NCBI RefSeq assembly: GCF_014930455.1
Contig: NZ_JAAIYO010000003.1
Location: 558,001 to 622,000, forward strand
Origin: Corallococcus soli
GTDB lineage: Bacteria > Myxococcota > Myxococcia > Myxococcales > Myxococcaceae
Length of the DNA: 64,000 nt
Direction of reading: 5' to 3'
Both the position numbers and the translations under genes were made by a program. Each line of letters begins with the position of its first letter. Position 1 is the first letter of the stretch. Below are positions 13,501 through 21,477 of the stretch, piece by piece. The notes beneath the pieces were generated by a model, which was given only the letters and a program-made list of their open reading frames with translations, did not search any database and was not told where the DNA came from.

Positions 13501-13530
13501 CTTCGCCGTCGTCACCCGACGACGGCGAAG
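13501..13530. terminator. Strong bidirectional hairpin overlapping a stop codon
   Basis: A perfect 13-bp stem (CTTCGCCGTCGTC/GACGACGGCGAAG) with a 4-base loop. It lies between convergent genes and includes the last codons and the TGA stop (13512-13514) of the propeller gene on the minus strand. There is no T-run. The sequence CCCTTCGTCGTC at 13460-13471 resembles the left arm and could pair alternatively. Confidence 0.65.
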
Positions 13531-15707
13531 TGGGACCCCAGCCGGTACGCGGACAGCGTGCCGGCGTCGTCCAGGAAGTAGAGGTTGAGGCGCACGTCGG
13601 CCTGGAGCGCGACCAGCCCCACCCCCGCGCGCACCTCCGCGAGCACCTGTCCGCCGCGAGGATCCACCGCGCGCACCACCTCGCCCGCCACCAGCGTCAC
13701 GTCCCGCGCGGTGCGCGCCGGCAGCGCCGCGATGAGCGGCTCCCCCGCGGCCCCCACGCGCCAGTCCACCTGTCCGGACACGGACACGCGGGCGGCGGCC
13801 CCGGACGCGCTCGTCACCACCACCGCGCGCGGCAGCGGCGCCAGCGCGTAGGGCCCCGGGCCCAGGTGCAGCGCGCGCTCCCACACCTTGCGCCCGCGCG
13901 AGTCCAGGCACACCAGCAGCCCGTCCTCGTCGCGCATGCCCGCGAGGAACACCCGCGCGCCCATGGGCAGCGGCGTGGAGGGCAGGGTGAGATCCGGCTC
14001 GTGCGTCCACAGCGCCTCGCCGGTGTGCGCGTCCGACAGCAGCATCGCCCAGTGCGAGCCGCGCCCCAGGATGGCCAGGAACCGCTTGCCCCACGCCACC
14101 GGAGGCCCGTGGAAGGGCATGGGCGAGCGCAGCCGGTAGCGCACCTGCCCGTCCTCCAGGTCCAGCCCGTAGAGGTAGCCCGAGTCCGTGGACAGCAGCG
14201 CCCGGTGGCCCTGCGTGGCCAGCCACCCGCGCTGCGTGCGGGGCGGGGCCAGGCGCCACACCTCGCGGCCCGTGGCCTCCGCGAAGGCCACCGCGGTGCG
14301 GTCCTCCGACAGCGTGAGCAGCAGCCCGTCCTGGCGCAGCAGCAGGGGCCCCAGCGGGATGCCGTCGTGGTCATGCAGCCAGCGCGCGCCCGCGCCCCGG
14401 CCGGTGAAGCCGAACACGCGCGCCCCATCCGCCGCCACCGCGTGGCCATCCGCGGACGCCGCCACGCCCAGCGACGCGGACCTGCGCCACAGCTCCGCGC
14501 CGTCCTTGCGCGAGAACGCGCACGCCAGCCCCGGCGCGCAGTACACCGGCCCGTGCCGGCCCACGAGCAGCCGCGCCTCCTCCGGCTCCTCCAGCCCGCG
14601 CTGCTCCCACTGCTTCTCGAAGCGCAGGCGCCGCAGCCGCCCCGGGACCTTCAGCGGCCGGGACTCTCCGCGCGCGGGCGGACTCTTGCGCTCGCGCGCC
14701 TCGCCCTCCGCTTCGGGCGGCTTCCGCGCGCCGCGCAGGTGCGACAGGCCCTCGCGGCAGCGCTCCGTCAGCTCCACCAGGTACGGGTTGGAGACCTGGA
14801 CCCGGTGGGCCTCCGCGAAGGCCAGCCCCAGCGCCTCGCCCAACTGGAAGAGCGCGGACAGGAGCGCGCCGGGCTCCAGGGGAAAATAGGTGCCGGTGGG
14901 ACCCAGCTTCGCCCGCTGCCCCTTGAGGTCCAGCGTCAGCGCGGGACGTACGCCGGCGGGCTCGAACTCGAAGCGCGCCTCGCCCAGCTCCACGGCCCGC
15001 GCCAGCTCCACCGCCTGTCGGGACAGCTCCAGCACGGTGAGGAACGGCGGCCCCTGGGCGCGCCACGCCTGCGGCCGCCCGGGCAGCGCGAGCCAGACCT
15101 CACCCGCGCCCAGCAACGGCGCCAGCGCCCCGGACGGGCCCTTCGCGGGGCCCTCGCGGGCGGCGGGGGACACGTCCTTGAGCTCGAAGCCGAAGCCCGG
15201 CACGGACACCGGGTCGATGCGCAGCGGGGTGGGGGGAAGCGGCGGGTCCTCCTGATGGGGGGCGGGCTTTCCCAGGCCCTTGAGCGCTTCGCCCAGCTTC
15301 CGGGCGACCTGGGGGGACAGGGCCTTGGGGGCCACCTTCGCCACGTCCTGGAGGAACCGCTGGCCGCTCTGGCGGGTCGCCTTCGTCAATTCCTCCGTGT
15401 CAACCTTAATAGGTGGGCGCAGCAGATGGGCCGGTCGGGCCAGGCTGGCGACAGAAAGTTCGACGTCCGGTCCGACGCGCCGGAGCACCAGCTCCAGGTG
15501 GGCCTCCGTCAACGAAACCTGGGCCATCCGGCGCGCGCCGACGTGCAGCGCCGCCACGGCCTCCACCAGAGCGGGAATGACCTCCGCCAGGGGCTCTTCC
15601 ACGGCCCCGGACAACAGGTTCACTCCGTCCAGTTCCAGCGCGATGGAATCGAGCGGGGAGGCTGACGGTTCGCGCTTCCAACGCTGTCCGATGCGTATCC
15701 GGGTCAT
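13512..15707 (-). CDS. PQQ-like beta-propeller protein
   Basis: A 731-residue protein without a signal peptide. Residues about 1-340 are a poorly characterised helical and sandwich region. From about 365 to the end there are repeated propeller blades with PQQ/WD-type patterns: FSRKDGAELWRR, FAEATGREVWRL, YGLDLEDGQVRYRL, SDAHTGEALWTHEP, CLDSRGRKVWERAL, VSVSGQVDWRV. Each is a G-x-x-x-W strand end. Propellers of this type usually act as binding scaffolds; no enzyme residues are visible. The ATG at 15707 faces away from the HARE-HTH gene, and the 97-base gap must carry both promoters. Partner and role unknown. Confidence 0.75.
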   Translation of the reverse strand: MTRIRIGQRWKREPSASPLDSIALELDGVNLLSGAVEEPLAEVIPALVEAVAALHVGARRMAQVSLTEAHLELVLRRVGPDVELSVASLARPAHLLRPPIKVDTEELTKATRQSGQRFLQDVAKVAPKALSPQVARKLGEALKGLGKPAPHQEDPPLPPTPLRIDPVSVPGFGFELKDVSPAAREGPAKGPSGALAPLLGAGEVWLALPGRPQAWRAQGPPFLTVLELSRQAVELARAVELGEARFEFEPAGVRPALTLDLKGQRAKLGPTGTYFPLEPGALLSALFQLGEALGLAFAEAHRVQVSNPYLVELTERCREGLSHLRGARKPPEAEGEARERKSPPARGESRPLKVPGRLRRLRFEKQWEQRGLEEPEEARLLVGRHGPVYCAPGLACAFSRKDGAELWRRSASLGVAASADGHAVAADGARVFGFTGRGAGARWLHDHDGIPLGPLLLRQDGLLLTLSEDRTAVAFAEATGREVWRLAPPRTQRGWLATQGHRALLSTDSGYLYGLDLEDGQVRYRLRSPMPFHGPPVAWGKRFLAILGRGSHWAMLLSDAHTGEALWTHEPDLTLPSTPLPMGARVFLAGMRDEDGLLVCLDSRGRKVWERALHLGPGPYALAPLPRAVVVTSASGAAARVSVSGQVDWRVGAAGEPLIAALPARTARDVTLVAGEVVRAVDPRGGQVLAEVRAGVGLVALQADVRLNLYFLDDAGTLSAYRLGSHFAVVG

Positions 15708-15716
15708 TTACGTTCG

Positions 15717-15746
15717 TTGACAAGCCAGTTTAGCGGTGGCTAGCAT
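15717..15746 (+). promoter_or_regulatory. Predicted sigma-70-type promoter for the HARE-HTH gene
   Basis: TTGACA (15717-15722), an 18-base spacer, and TAGCAT (15741-15746). Transcription would start near 15753, giving a leader of about 50 bases that contains ACATTTTTGTAACC, the most T-rich stretch in this area. The -35 is a perfect consensus, rare in such GC-rich DNA. Confidence 0.55.
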
Positions 15747-15804
15747 CCGCCGCCCATACGGACCTACATTTTTGTAACCGTTCGGAATTCTTGGGGATTA
15801 CTCG

Positions 15805-18039
15805 ATGACATTTTACGAGGCCGCGCTCCGAGTGCTGGAGAGCGAAGGTCGCCCCCTGCATTTCCTTGAGATCACGGAGAAGTCCATCCAGCAGAGCCTG
15901 CTGTCCCACATCGGCAAGACACCGGAAGTGACGATGCTGTCGCGCCTGGCTGCCATGGCGCGGCGGACGCGGGATCGCAAGGTGATTGTCACGGCGAAGG
16001 ATACCTTCGCACTGACGGACTGGTCACTCTCCGAGGATGCCGAGGCACTTGCACAGACGGGCGTGATGGAGCCGCATCCGGAGGAGGAGCTTCCTCCCCT
16101 GCGGCCGGTGGAGCGCCACCCGGAGCCGCGCACGGACAACGTGCGCGCGTCGGGGCGTGGCACGGAGCGCAAGCGCCGCCGCGACGAGGGCGACGAGGAG
16201 CGGGGCCGCAGGAAGCGCTTCCCGCCGCTGCCGGAGGTGGTGTTCGAGATCCTCAGCGAGGCGGACGTCGGCCTGCGCACGGATCAGCTCATCGAGCGCG
16301 CCCGGTCCAAGGAGCTGTGCGCCGAGGAGACGACGGTGGAGGCGGTGCTCACCGCCCTGCTGGAGGACAACCAGCGCCGCATCGACGCGGGCCGCCGGCC
16401 CCAGTACGCCTTCAACCAGGAGACCGGGGAGGTGTCGCTGGAGCGCGCGGGTGCGCCGAGCGAGGCGCCGCCCCTGGAGCTCCAGGCGGCGTTCGCGCAG
16501 GCCCTGGGCATCCCGCTGGAGGGTGGCCGCCCGGTGCTGGGCAAGCCCGCCGCGGGCGCCGAGCCCCTGGTGGACGAGGCCCTCATCACCACCGCGCGCA
16601 CGGCCCTCAAGGACGCGCGTCGGGCGGTGGCGCGCGGGCTGCGCAAGCGCCTGGGCGACGCGGACGTGGGCACCTTCGAGAAGTCCGTGGTGAAGATGAT
16701 GCACGGGCTGGGCTTCCGCGAGCTGAAGGTCGCGAAGCGCTCCAAGGAAGGCCCCCTGCTCACCGCGCGCAAGCGCGAGGGCAGCGTGGAGCTGCGCTAC
16801 GCGGTGCGCATGCTCAAGGGCACCCCGGGCGTGGACCGCAAGACGGTGCAGGAGCTGCGGCGCGACCTGGGCCACTACTCCGCGCAGGTCGGTCTGCTGG
16901 TGAGCGCGGGCGAGGTGCGCGGCGACGCGCGCTCCGAGGCGCAGGCCACCGGCTCGCTGGTGATGCTGTGGTGCGGTGACGCGCTGGGTGAGAAGTTCCT
17001 GGAGGCCAGGACGGCCGTCAACGTCACCCAGGTGGAGCTGTACGACATCGACGAGCGCTTCTTCGAGGCCGCGAAGCTGGACGCCGAGGAGGCCCAGCGC
17101 CGCCGCGAGGAGCGCAAGAGCGAGAAGCAGGCCCGCGAGGAGGGTGGCGAGGTGGAGGCCTCCGCTCCCGCCGCGGACCGTCCGGAGCGCGAGGAGCGTC
17201 CGGAGCGAGGCGACCGTCAGGAGCGCTCCGAGCGCCGCCGCGACCGCCAGCGCGCACGCAACGAAGCCCGCGACGCGGCCGCCGCCCAGGCCGGGACCGA
17301 AGCCGCGGAGCCCAAGGCCGCGCCGGTGGCCGCCGCGCCGCCGGCCGCCGCCGGGTTCACGCCCACGTCGTCGGAAGAGGATGACTCCGACGAGGGGGAT
17401 GACGACGGCGAGGACGACGACCTGGAGGCCGCCAGCGCCTTCGTGGGAGGAGCCAAGGAGGGCGCCGAGGGTGGCGCTTCCGCCGAGGCCTCCGCGTCCG
17501 AGCGCAAGCGTCGCCGCCGTCGCCGCCGGGGTCGTCGCGGCCGTGGCACGCGCGGAGCGGAGGGCGCGCTCCCGGGCGAGCCCGGCGCTCCCGCGACGGG
17601 TGATGCGGTCGCCGCCTCGGGTGAGATCGCCGCGCCTTCCGCGGGTGGAGCGGGCGAGGGCCTGGTCGCGCTCGCGGGCGAGTCCCTGCCCGCCGTCGCC
17701 GAAGCGGCCCCTGCCCCCCTCCATGGGGAAGCAGCCGTCACCACGCCGAGCGAAGGCAACGCATGGCACGCGGGCGAAGCCGTGACCGCACCGGCGGAGC
17801 CGACGCCCGAGTCCGCCGATGCCGCGCGGGCCCGTGCTGAAGCCGAGCAGGCCGCGTCCGACGCCGTGACGCCGGGCGCGAGCCCCGCGTTGTCGCCCGA
17901 GCAGGAGGCGTCCACGACGCCCACCGCCGAGCCAGCCGCGACCCCGAGCGAGCCCGTGGAGATCCGCGAGGCCCGCGAGGTGCACGAGGCGCCGGTCGCC
18001 TCCGAGCCGGAGACTCCGCCCGAGGGCAAGGAGGGCTGA
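15805..18039 (+). CDS. HARE-HTH protein with an apparently inactive Mrr-like nuclease domain
   Basis: A 744-residue protein. Residues 1-75 are a HARE-HTH domain (FYEAALRVLESEGRPLHFLE, then LSRLAAMARRTRDR). A second winged-helix-like unit spans about 138-210. Residues about 288-420 resemble the Mrr-type restriction endonuclease fold (FEKSVVKMMHGLGFRELKV, GLLVSAGEVRGDARSEA, VTQVELYDIDE), but the catalytic G-x-D and Q-x-K positions read GPLL and VRML, so cleavage is unlikely. The C-terminal 330 residues are low complexity, with a basic patch RKRRRRRRRGRRGRG near 566-580 suited to nucleic-acid binding. It heads a probable operon with lipoproteins, birA and coaX. Role: DNA or RNA binding, otherwise unknown. 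Confidence 0.75.
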   Translation: MTFYEAALRVLESEGRPLHFLEITEKSIQQSLLSHIGKTPEVTMLSRLAAMARRTRDRKVIVTAKDTFALTDWSLSEDAEALAQTGVMEPHPEEELPPLRPVERHPEPRTDNVRASGRGTERKRRRDEGDEERGRRKRFPPLPEVVFEILSEADVGLRTDQLIERARSKELCAEETTVEAVLTALLEDNQRRIDAGRRPQYAFNQETGEVSLERAGAPSEAPPLELQAAFAQALGIPLEGGRPVLGKPAAGAEPLVDEALITTARTALKDARRAVARGLRKRLGDADVGTFEKSVVKMMHGLGFRELKVAKRSKEGPLLTARKREGSVELRYAVRMLKGTPGVDRKTVQELRRDLGHYSAQVGLLVSAGEVRGDARSEAQATGSLVMLWCGDALGEKFLEARTAVNVTQVELYDIDERFFEAAKLDAEEAQRRREERKSEKQAREEGGEVEASAPAADRPEREERPERGDRQERSERRRDRQRARNEARDAAAAQAGTEAAEPKAAPVAAAPPAAAGFTPTSSEEDDSDEGDDDGEDDDLEAASAFVGGAKEGAEGGASAEASASERKRRRRRRRGRRGRGTRGAEGALPGEPGAPATGDAVAASGEIAAPSAGGAGEGLVALAGESLPAVAEAAPAPLHGEAAVTTPSEGNAWHAGEAVTAPAEPTPESADAARARAEAEQAASDAVTPGASPALSPEQEASTTPTAEPAATPSEPVEIREAREVHEAPVASEPETPPEGKEG

Positions 18040-18094: not shown

Positions 18095-19012
18095 ATGAAG
18101 CCGGCCCTGCTGCTCACCTCCTGCGTGCTGTTACTCGGGGCCTGCCGCTCGCAGGCCCCGCGCCATCCGGTGGCGCCGATGGAGCTGTCCGGGGAGACCG
18201 TGCGGGACAACGCCCTGCTGGGCTTCGGCCCGGACGGGGTGCGGGAGCTGCTCTCCGAGGCGCTGGAGTCCTCCGGCCGCTTCGAGCTGGTGTCGGAGGA
18301 GGGGCCCAAGAAGGCCCGCCCCTGGCGCATGTCGCTGGAGCTGCCCTTCACCCGCGAGGTGCTGAAGGACGGCAACCCCCACAGCTTCGCGGAGGTGGGC
18401 GCCAACCTGTCCCTGGAGCGCTTCGGCGGCCCCGTGCCCCAGCGCTACGAGGTGGTGGGCCTGGGTGAGGCGCCCGTGCAGGAGGACTCGGAGGAGGGCC
18501 GCCGGACCGCCATGCGCACCGCGCTGGAGAGCGTGCTGCGTCAGGTGACGGAGTCGGCGCTGTTGCAGCTCTCCGCGCTGGAGCGCACGGACGAAGCGCT
18601 GGTGACGGACCTGCGCGCCACCGACACGCGCATCCGCGAGTTCGCCCTGCGCACGCTGGCCGACCGCAAGCACCCGGCCGCCGCGCCCCTGCTGATTGAA
18701 CGCCTGAAGGACACCGGCGACGCGGCCGCGGTGCGCCGCACCATTGGCGCGCTGGCGGAGATGAAGGCGAAGAGCGCGGTGCCGGCCCTCATCGACCTGG
18801 CGCGCGGCCGCGACTCCGGCTTCCTCCAGGAGATCGTCTTCGCGGTGGGGGAGATTGGCGGCCCCGAAGCGGAGGCCTACCTGTACACGGTGGCCCAGGG
18901 CCACGACACGCCGTCGGTGCAGGCCGCCGCGAAGCAGGCGCTCGACACGCTCTACGCATCACGCAACCACGCAACGGTGGAGGCGCGTGGCCAGGGCCAC
19001 GCGGACCCTTGA
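18095..19012 (+). CDS. HEAT-repeat lipoprotein
   Basis: A 305-residue lipoprotein with lipobox LLGAC (Cys17). Residues about 25-165 form an unrecognised mixed domain. Residues about 175-285 carry HEAT/PBS-lyase-type repeats: DTRIREFALRTLADRKHPAAAPLLIERL, DAAAVRRTIGALAEMKAKSAVPALIDL and FLQEIVFAVGEIGGPEAEAYL are successive helical pairs, given here by their order. It probably serves as a protein-binding scaffold at the envelope. The stop is 2 bases before the next lipoprotein's start, so they are co-transcribed. AAGGGGG precedes the ATG. Confidence 0.8.
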   Translation: MKPALLLTSCVLLLGACRSQAPRHPVAPMELSGETVRDNALLGFGPDGVRELLSEALESSGRFELVSEEGPKKARPWRMSLELPFTREVLKDGNPHSFAEVGANLSLERFGGPVPQRYEVVGLGEAPVQEDSEEGRRTAMRTALESVLRQVTESALLQLSALERTDEALVTDLRATDTRIREFALRTLADRKHPAAAPLLIERLKDTGDAAAVRRTIGALAEMKAKSAVPALIDLARGRDSGFLQEIVFAVGEIGGPEAEAYLYTVAQGHDTPSVQAAAKQALDTLYASRNHATVEARGQGHADP

Positions 19013-19014
19013 GT

Positions 19015-19632
19015 ATGAGGCAATCGCTGTCGACGGTGGGGGGCATCGCCCTCCTGGTCACCACGCTCGTGGGCTCCGGATGCGCGAAGCGCGTCGAGTC
19101 GGACGCCCGCCCCGCACCCGAATCCATCGCCGAGTACTACCCGCTGGCGGTGGGCAACCAGTGGACGTACCGGCTGGACAAGCGGGACGACAAGCCCGTC
19201 ACCGTGGAGATCGTCAAGGAGCAGGATGGGTACTTCCTGGACAACCAGGGCGGCCAGCTGATGGTGGACGCCTTCGGCCTGCGCGACCCCAAGCGCTACC
19301 TGCTGCGAGGCCCGCTGGAGGCCGGGCGCGGGTGGAACAACGTGGTGTCCGTGTCGTCCACGGAGCGCTACCAGCTGGTGCAGGTGGGCTTCGCGTGCCA
19401 GGTCCCCGCGGGCTCGTTCCCCAACTGCGTCAGCGTGGAGGGCCGCAACCGGGTGGACGCGAAGACGACGCTCGTCAACACGATGACCTTCGCCGCGGGC
19501 GTGGGGCTCGTGCGCGTGGACGTGGCCACGGAGCAGGAGGGCAAGCGCGTGCCGCAGACGGAGCTGGAGCTGGTGTCCTTCAAGGTCGGAGCCGCCGGCG
19601 CCGCCGCGACCCCGCCGCCCGCCGCGAACTGA
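19015..19632 (+). CDS. Lipoprotein of unknown function
   Basis: A 205-residue lipoprotein; the lipobox is VGSGC (Cys23). The mature part opens with YYPLAVGNQWTYRLD, a motif shared by many delta-proteobacterial lipoproteins of unknown role that fold as a single beta-rich domain, and continues with CQVPAGSFPNCVSVEGRN, where two cysteines may form a disulfide. The C-terminus is an Ala/Pro tail. It follows the HEAT lipoprotein by 2 bases and precedes birA by 10. Confidence 0.75.
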   Translation: MRQSLSTVGGIALLVTTLVGSGCAKRVESDARPAPESIAEYYPLAVGNQWTYRLDKRDDKPVTVEIVKEQDGYFLDNQGGQLMVDAFGLRDPKRYLLRGPLEAGRGWNNVVSVSSTERYQLVQVGFACQVPAGSFPNCVSVEGRNRVDAKTTLVNTMTFAAGVGLVRVDVATEQEGKRVPQTELELVSFKVGAAGAAATPPPAAN

Positions 19633-19642
19633 AGCGCCCCGC

Positions 19643-20674
19643 ATGGCCGTGGAGACGACGAACGAGCTGTCGCAGGACGCGCGCATCCTGGGCTTCCTCG
19701 CCGAGGGCGGGGAGGGCTTCATCTCCGGGGAGGCCCTGTCGAACCGGCTGGGCCTGTCGCGCACCGCGGTGTGGAAGCACGTGGAGTCCCTGCGGCTGAA
19801 GGGCTACCGCATCGACGCGGTGCCCGCGAAGGGCTACCGGCTGGTGGGCCGGCCGGACCGGCTCTCCGCGCTGGAGCTCCACCCGCTGCTCGCCACCCGC
19901 GCCATGGGCCGCGTGCTGCACCACCACGACAGCATCGGCTCCACCAACGCGACGGCCTTCCGGCTGGCCCAGGACGGCGCGCCGCATGGCACCGTGGTGG
20001 TGGCCGAACAGCAGACGGCGGGCAAGGGGCGCCGGGGCCGCGCGTGGGTGTCCCCGCCCGGCCTCAACCTGTACTTCTCCGCCATCCTCCGCCCGGAGCT
20101 GTCCCCGCAGCGGGCGCCGGAGCTCACGCTGGTGGCCGCCGTGGCGCTGGCGGAGGCCCTGCGTGAGTCCGGCGCCGACGCGGCCATCAAGTGGCCCAAC
20201 GACGTCCAGTTGGGAGGCCTCAAGGTGGCGGGCATCCTCACGGAGCTGTCCGCCGAACCGGAGCGCGTGCACTTCGTCATCGTGGGCGTGGGCGTCAACC
20301 TCAACGCGGGCCCCGAGCACTTCCCGGAGGAGCTGCGGGACACCGCCACGTCGGTGGCCCAGGCCCTGGGGCGGCCGGTGGCCCGGGCGGCCTTCACGGC
20401 GGCCCTGTGGACGCGGCTGGAGGCCTGGCTGGACACGTACCTGGCCACCGGCTTCGACGCGGTGCGCACCCGCTGGAAGGCCCTGTCGAGCACCCTGGGG
20501 CAGCAGGTCCGGGTGCGCACGGACCGGGGGGACTGGGAGGGGTTCGCGGAGGACATCGACCCCACGGGCGCGCTGATGGTGCGCACGGCGGAGGGCCGCG
20601 TGGAGCGGGTGCTCGCGGGCGACGTCGAACAGGTGCGTCCCCGGGCCGCATCGCGCCCTCAAGGACGCGGCTGA
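19643..20674 (+). CDS. birA: Biotin--[acetyl-CoA carboxylase] ligase / biotin repressor
   Basis: A 343-residue two-domain BirA. The N-terminal winged helix (about 10-65: [36 protein letters not shown]) allows DNA binding, so it is the repressor-type class. The ligase core has [19 protein letters not shown] (the biotinyl-AMP loop, GRGRRGR in E. coli), KWPNDV and GVGVNLN. A C-terminal SH3-like domain ends near 325. It activates biotin as biotinyl-AMP and transfers it to carboxyl carrier proteins. Neighbouring coaX places two cofactor genes together, a common pairing. Confidence 0.95.

Positions 20675-20706: not shown

Positions 20707-21473
<767 letters not shown>

Positions 21474-21477
<4 letters not shown>

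Follow-up and report, generated by a model that had tools for sequence, protein, structure and literature searches.

What role is left to a HARE-Mrr protein once it has become unable to cut? The question is raised by one gene in the window, the whole stretch of 64,000 nucleotides of the Corallococcus soli genome analyzed here, and Myxococcus xanthus, whose orthologue we located in strain AM003 (locus L021), offers a simple target for pursuing it. Restriction folds that have lost their activity have been described from conflict systems and from the polymerase subunit Rpb5; a HARE-Mrr enzyme that had become fixed as a single-copy core gene throughout a bacterial order would be a clean example of a defence enzyme turned to housekeeping. 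Among the papers listed by our literature searches none describes a HARE-dead-Mrr family, which may be mentioned in the original HARE-HTH paper (Aravind and Iyer 2012).

Domain architecture

The gene extends from an ATG start over 15805..18039 of the forward strand and encodes 744 residues, exactly as the initial annotation had placed it; it is present in a single copy in the C. soli genome, and nine named Corallococcus records carry it at 96-99% identity. Its first 73 residues (15805..16023, +) form a HARE-HTH domain (Pfam PF05066, E 2.7e-15), which scores 56.9 bits against a cut-off of 25.9 and is the best conserved of the three domains in the orthologue alignment, with a mean column identity of 67% and invariant columns at M1, T2, E5, A6, L11, P17, H35, G37, and P40. 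It is followed by a linker, delimited by invariant alignment columns and AlphaFold confidence (residues 99-138; 16099..16218, +), in which R100, E103, R104, and P106 are conserved together with a basic stretch, and in which pLDDT falls below 50 at residues 112-134. The next block is a second winged helix (residues 142-212; 16228..16440, +), recognized from the AlphaFold model and from its likeness to HARE in a profile comparison (hhalign probability 86.5%, E 4.6e-6, 12% identity); it is modeled with helices at 142-153, 159-168, and 178-194 and strands at 201-204 and 209-212, at a pLDDT of 93-96 over residues 141-210, and its net charge in the window protein is -7. A long helix (258-285) then leads into an inactive Mrr-type PD-(D/E)xK domain (residues 287-424; 16663..17076, +), where Pfam detects Mrr_cat (PF04471) at residues 289-394 with an E-value of 5.5e-11 and 43 bits, against a cut-off of 21. 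The remainder, residues 427-744, is of low complexity.

Both HARE-HTH and Mrr_cat are matched at E <=0.01 in all 48 orthologues of a set picked for diversity out of 95 distinct sequences and used for the alignments. With these 48 as input, AlphaFold models residues 1-426 as three well-defined folded units, namely HARE, second winged helix, and alpha/beta PD-(D/E)xK core, at a mean pLDDT of 86.5 and a pTM of 0.43, the latter being, in our reading, due to the linkers. Pfam and the model thus bear out the succession of HARE-HTH, second winged helix, and Mrr-like fold that had been read from the sequence.

The top Foldseek match of the Mrr domain is MspJI (E 1.2e-4); after realignment, the top matches are AF1548 (Z 11.9 over 108 residues, 2.4 A) and AspBHI (Z 11.3), which supports the Mrr-like fold that had been proposed for residues 265-420. 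Many entries of Rpb5 also match this domain, at Z 7.5-9.1 over 96-110 residues and with 10-14% identity, ranking below the Mrr-type nucleases. The HARE model matches the delta subunit RpoE (9a6y) at Z 8.0 over 71 residues with 20% identity, and further matches the globular domain of histone H1 (Z 9.1), Zalpha (Z 8.3), and Fur-type winged helices; the matches to H1, Zalpha, and the Fur-type proteins we take as the common winged-helix arrangement, as far as the models go, and the search tool itself warns that Z below 8 may reflect only such a common arrangement. The PDB sequence searches gave no relevant match: delta was not found by the HARE profile, nor Rpb5 by the Mrr-domain profile.

Loss of the nuclease site

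In an alignment of 95 rows, with five intact Mrr relatives from the same phylum (L119-L123) as reference, the sequence GPLL (residues 316-319; 16750..16761, +) stands where the metal-binding G-x-D loop is expected, and VRML (residues 334-337; 16804..16815, +) stands at the Q-x-K motif, which in the intact relatives aligns with R335-M336-L337. The initial annotation had picked out these two motifs as the altered catalytic positions, and had asked whether the loss is conserved in all myxobacterial copies; it is found in every one of the 95 distinct orthologues, these being the loci fetched rather than all 136 matching genomes, less two with an in-frame stop codon (L039, L057) and sequences with identical first 440 residues. 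The column of the catalytic Asp is empty in 95/95, with the next column over holding L (57 rows), Y (18), F (9), M (6), I (3), V (1), or C (1). At the Gln column the residue is Arg in 85 rows, Lys in 8, and Gln in 1, with one gap, and the Lys column contains Lys in none of the 95. An active site rebuilt from other nearby residues, which would have spoken against inactivation, was considered and rejected: none of the rows shows a D or E up to 4 columns away from the lost Asp. Of the old site, the Glu in the helix is retained (E in 91 rows, D in 4), and it may thus have a metal or partner role.

The charge of the domain differs as well. Over residues 258-424 the net charge of the 48 orthologues ranges from +1 to +10, with a mean of +5.7, whereas the same domain carries -6, -3, -7, -5, and -8 in the intact relatives, a comparison that covers these five proteins and hand-cut segments. 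In the 48 rows R312, G326, and R331 are invariant and R322, R345, and R352 nearly so. From these sequences we infer a possible change from metal-dependent cutting to the metal-free holding of a polyanion. One orthologue (L089 in G030) is shorter by about 40 residues inside the Mrr domain with the frame kept, reflecting either a deletion or an assembly fault.

Distribution, selection, and origin

By profile search, 136 of the 145 genomes of the window's order have a match, a count that includes a weak one in G037 (E 6e-9, maybe another Mrr protein) as well as fragments from G025 and G072. Among genomes with a completeness of at least 90% and a contamination of no more than 5%, the proportion is 114/115, the one good-quality genome without a match being G085; within the window's genus, 14 of the 15 other genomes have the gene. 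Additional matches, among the matches listed, span the Mrr part only, the exceptions being G020, G030, and G157, where pieces of the gene are split or duplicated. The HARE-HTH domain occurs once in the window's own genome and is present in 136/195 genomes of the phylum, with only five further HARE-HTH loci within the order (G061, G115, G134, G143, and G158); a HARE-HTH protein is also encoded in three of 14 control genomes (B. subtilis, Thermus composti, and L. lactis). At the level of the class, the outgroups G163 and G164 have inactive forms too. Outside the class, 6/48 genomes match, and two of these, G010 and G018, encode HARE together with an intact Mrr domain and match type IV restriction models.

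Patchy distribution and mobile carriage, the marks of an anti-phage defence system, are neither of them seen: at E 1e-3 there is no match among 72,556 plasmid and 50,697 phage records, and PADLOC returns the window protein weakly, at E 1.7e-10 as compared with 1.7e-139 for an intact relative. A mobile or defence locus was rejected on the grounds of the order-wide matches and of the empty plasmid and phage searches. The domains are under purifying selection. Across seven pairs chosen by hand, dN/dS ranges over 0.00-0.08 for HARE and 0.11-0.23 for the Mrr domain, as compared with 0.34-0.52 for the tail; the values for the second winged helix are 0.21-0.32 and, in one case, 0.85, at low dS.

The derivation from an Mrr-type restriction enzyme that had been suggested for this protein is supported by its Mrr fold and by the intact HARE-Mrr relatives; the simplest history that the sequences allow would involve a single capture and a single loss, no later than the base of the class. 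Several single records deserve mention in their own right. In G077 (L039) and G061 (L057) the gene has one in-frame TAG each, at different sites, attributable to sequencing error, decay, or readthrough; from these stops and the lack of a match in G085 it follows that the gene may be non-essential. Among the essentiality data listed there is no M. xanthus set. Locus L118 (G014, outside the class; reverse strand, with the frame open from 1333 of the reverse complement) encodes a HARE-HTH protein of a distant family that has stretches rich in Arg and Asp and whose later part aligns, in a single alignment, as a degenerate Mrr domain; it is possibly a second, independent pseudo-enzyme. Locus L016 (BNCN01000004.1), titled Comamonas sp. 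KCTC 72670, has the gene at 88% identity amid the usual myxobacterial neighbors and is probably a mislabelled Myxococcus.

The C-terminal tail

The low-complexity tail contains an acidic patch, EEDDSDEGDDDGEDDD (residues 524-539; 17374..17421, +), and further on an Arg run, RKRRRRRRRGRRGRG (residues 567-581; 17503..17547, +), of which KRRRRRRRGRRGRG makes up residues 568-581. The codons of the run are a mixture of CGT, CGC, and CGG; it is thus no simple codon repeat. After incomplete and identical sequences are dropped, 87 proteins can be compared: a run of at least 7 R/K occurs in 64 of them, and 63 of these 64 also have a 15-residue window with at least 9 D/E. The 23 proteins lacking the run are all 20 outside the families f1 and f3, two of genus g23 within f1, and one (L102) within f3; a strong acidic patch is likewise absent from several families. 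The low-complexity tail with its polyarginine run, to which the initial annotation had drawn attention, is thus real as to the run, but confined to two families; it is therefore not at the core of the function, which it may modify in these two families and does not define.

Promoter, leader, and neighboring genes

The near-consensus promoter noted at the outset is confirmed. A scan places a sigma-70-type promoter, TTGACA-18-TAGCAT, at 15717..15746 (+), with 10 of 12 matches where shuffled sequences lead one to expect 0.1, and in related genera the aligned upstream regions have both hexamers at the corresponding position. The 5' leader that this promoter would produce (15747..15804, +), with its start predicted from the promoter and its extent seen in the alignment, is almost identical across Corallococcus, Myxococcus, Pyxidicoccus, Archangium, and Hyalangium. 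It contains a candidate hairpin, CGG..TACA-TTTT-TGTA..CCG, and arms that remain complementary while differing in sequence are found at the same aligned place elsewhere (GGCTTCC/GGAAGCC in L071, GACTTCC/GGAAGTC in L111). In 18 hand-picked loci, 4-bp arms are found in 7, 7, and 6 rows at columns 39, 40, and 35, against 3 rows or fewer at the other columns of 23-58, and 5-bp arms in 5 of the 18 rows at column 39, against 2 or fewer elsewhere. Over 53 loci, also hand-picked, the z-scores of the fold energy are modest (mean -0.76); RNAalifold reports no consensus structure or pair for nine rows, and the motif has no other occurrence in its own genome at up to 3 mismatches. Judging by these alignments, the element may be either an RNA hairpin or a DNA dyad.

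The most widely kept neighbor found is the divergent gene upstream (13512..15707, -), which encodes a BamB-like beta-propeller protein (Pfam PQQ_2, 4.7e-18; structural model with BamB matches). It is present in 69 of the 78 loci with at least 1500 nt, many of which are near relatives, and stands beside the gene as far back as the class level (L109). A signal peptide is not evident in its sequence; the fold matches listed are taken up by its propeller rather than by its N-terminal part (approximately residues 1-325). Downstream and on the same strand, the window has a HEAT-repeat putative lipoprotein (18095..19012, +; Pfam HEAT_2, 1.1e-15), a second small putative lipoprotein without a Pfam match (19009..19632, +), the biotin ligase gene birA (19643..20674, +; Pfam), and coaX, a type III pantothenate kinase gene (20707..21477, +; Pfam Pan_kinase, 2.1e-80). 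Counting loci with enough downstream DNA (f1: L002-L026, L056-L074, L076, and L110-L112; elsewhere: L075, L077-L109, and L113-L115), the HEAT lipoprotein follows in 44/44 loci of family f1 and 20/29 elsewhere, the second lipoprotein in 42/44 and 17/28, birA on the same strand in 25/25 and 0/16, and coaX on the same strand in 14/15 and 0/9. The operon with birA and coaX that had been proposed does exist in the window, but its co-direction is confined to f1; it is therefore a local arrangement. As a clue to function it was rejected on these counts and because in L077 (G155, f7) a lipoprotein-birA-coaX-HEAT cluster lies directly downstream in inverted orientation.

In three loci of genus g44 (L082, L090, and L093; family f8) the orthologue overlaps the called start of a MutS-like ORF by 4 nt, which suggests that the two may be translationally coupled; the gene calls there come from a simple GC-based caller, and the identity and start of the MutS-like ORF are our reading.

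What the protein may do

We consider the protein to be a domesticated pseudo-restriction enzyme that would grip nucleic acid without cleaving it, and put the probability of this reading at roughly 70%. What the sequences show is how the domains are arranged, that the nuclease site is dead and the Mrr domain basic, that the gene is distributed like a core gene, and that the domains are under purifying selection. The capture of a modification-dependent (type IV-like) endonuclease composed of HARE-HTH and Mrr probably dates from the base of the window's class or earlier; the enzyme would then have lost the metal-binding Asp and the catalytic Lys, with the Gln position becoming mostly Arg or Lys, and the inactivated gene would have stayed on the chromosome in single copy. 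Together, the basic Mrr fold and the winged helices would provide the grip, the flexible acidic/Arg tail of the two families could tune affinity or recruit partners, and the daily role would be upkeep of the chromosome or of transcription rather than defence. The acidic second winged helix ill fits DNA binding by that part of the protein, as far as its charge of -7 can be taken as a guide.

A different answer, which we regard as doubtful, is suggested by the fold search, in which delta and Rpb5 came up unasked: the protein could be an accessory factor of RNA polymerase, with HARE docking as in RpoE delta at the beta' shelf/jaw, the dead Mrr domain placed on downstream DNA in the manner of the N-terminal domain of Rpb5, and the acidic tail competing with nucleic acid. 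The Z-scores of the HARE model against delta and of the Mrr domain against Rpb5 are consistent with this, the distribution of a core gene fits it, and the Rpb5 domain is itself described as a dead restriction fold and postulated nucleic-acid binder (PMC551604). However, AF1548, AspBHI, and MspJI are better matches than Rpb5, the HARE model resembles H1 and Zalpha no less than delta at scores close to those of a common arrangement, the HARE profile missed delta, several families do without a strong acidic patch, and likeness of fold is no proof of function; among the papers listed on partners of the M. xanthus polymerase, none was relevant. In its full form, by which a captured restriction enzyme would have become a polymerase factor specific to the lineage of the window's order, HARE docking like delta and Mrr gripping like Rpb5, this analogy seems to us improbable; were it true, a dead restriction fold would have been brought to the polymerase jaw a second time and independently, in bacteria.

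The tail and the leader together prompt another possibility, of a post-transcriptional RNA-binding protein whose Arg-rich tail and basic fold bind RNA, with the leader hairpin as autoregulatory site. The sole NCBIfam match is a weak one that points this way, to the RNA helicase RhlE2 over the low-complexity Arg run (E 0.0058, far under the cut-off), and related genera share an almost unchanged leader in which complementary arms are overrepresented at one position of the alignment. This stands against an Arg run that is missing from more than a quarter of the proteins, including all those outside f1 and f3, and against a leader without consensus pairs, with modest fold z-scores and without a second copy in the genome, which leaves such a role with a small chance. 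That the protein still serves in defence, as a nuclease-dead sensor or subunit that recognizes modified DNA and recruits an active partner, appears most improbable. Its relatives are restriction enzymes, and HARE-HTH has been proposed as a reader of modified bases (PMC10853773, PMC11037411), but the order-wide distribution, the mostly fixed neighbor, and the weak PADLOC match argue otherwise, and none of six neighboring window genes scanned with Pfam reaches a nuclease family cut-off.

Comparison with known systems

Proteins with the same two domains in the same order, HARE-HTH and Mrr, occur intact in G018 (L119) and G010 (L121). These keep G-[VI]-D and Q-x-K, whereas in the family studied here neither motif is retained, the protein is basic, and the gene is a core one; with Asp and Lys in 0/95 rows, the protein is therefore not classed as a restriction enzyme, despite its Mrr-branch fold and sequence. 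An inactive restriction fold is also what it has in common with NA-iREase1 (PF22722), the NACHT-associated inactive restriction endonuclease, which is matched at E <=0.01 in 26 of the 48 orthologues; the window protein itself scores 18.1 bits, under the cut-off of 27, and Pfam finds no NACHT domain in the six neighboring genes scanned.

The myxobacterial regulators of the CarD/HMGA type have an acidic stretch followed by a basic tail, and it is in this succession that the window protein resembles them; the RGRP core of AT-hooks is absent from it by eye, and Pfam finds no CarD domain. RpoE delta of the Bacillus RNA polymerase combines an N-terminal HARE-type domain with a disordered acidic tail and is the instance by which a HARE-type domain may bind protein rather than nucleic acid (PMC7749165); the HARE-HTH of ASXL, on the other hand, is termed a putative DNA-binding domain (PMC7660087). 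At approximately 173 residues, delta is without an Mrr domain and without a second winged helix, both of which are present here; the window protein has an acidic patch, a strong one being absent from several families.

The N-terminal domain of RPB5 resembles the Mrr domain in being a restriction-enzyme fold without catalytic residues, at the Z-scores of 7.5-9.1 given above. RPB5 is not known to have a HARE domain and belongs to eukaryotic RNA polymerases, whereas the protein studied here is bacterial. By inference from such cases, the HARE-dead-Mrr protein would work as other inactive restriction folds do.
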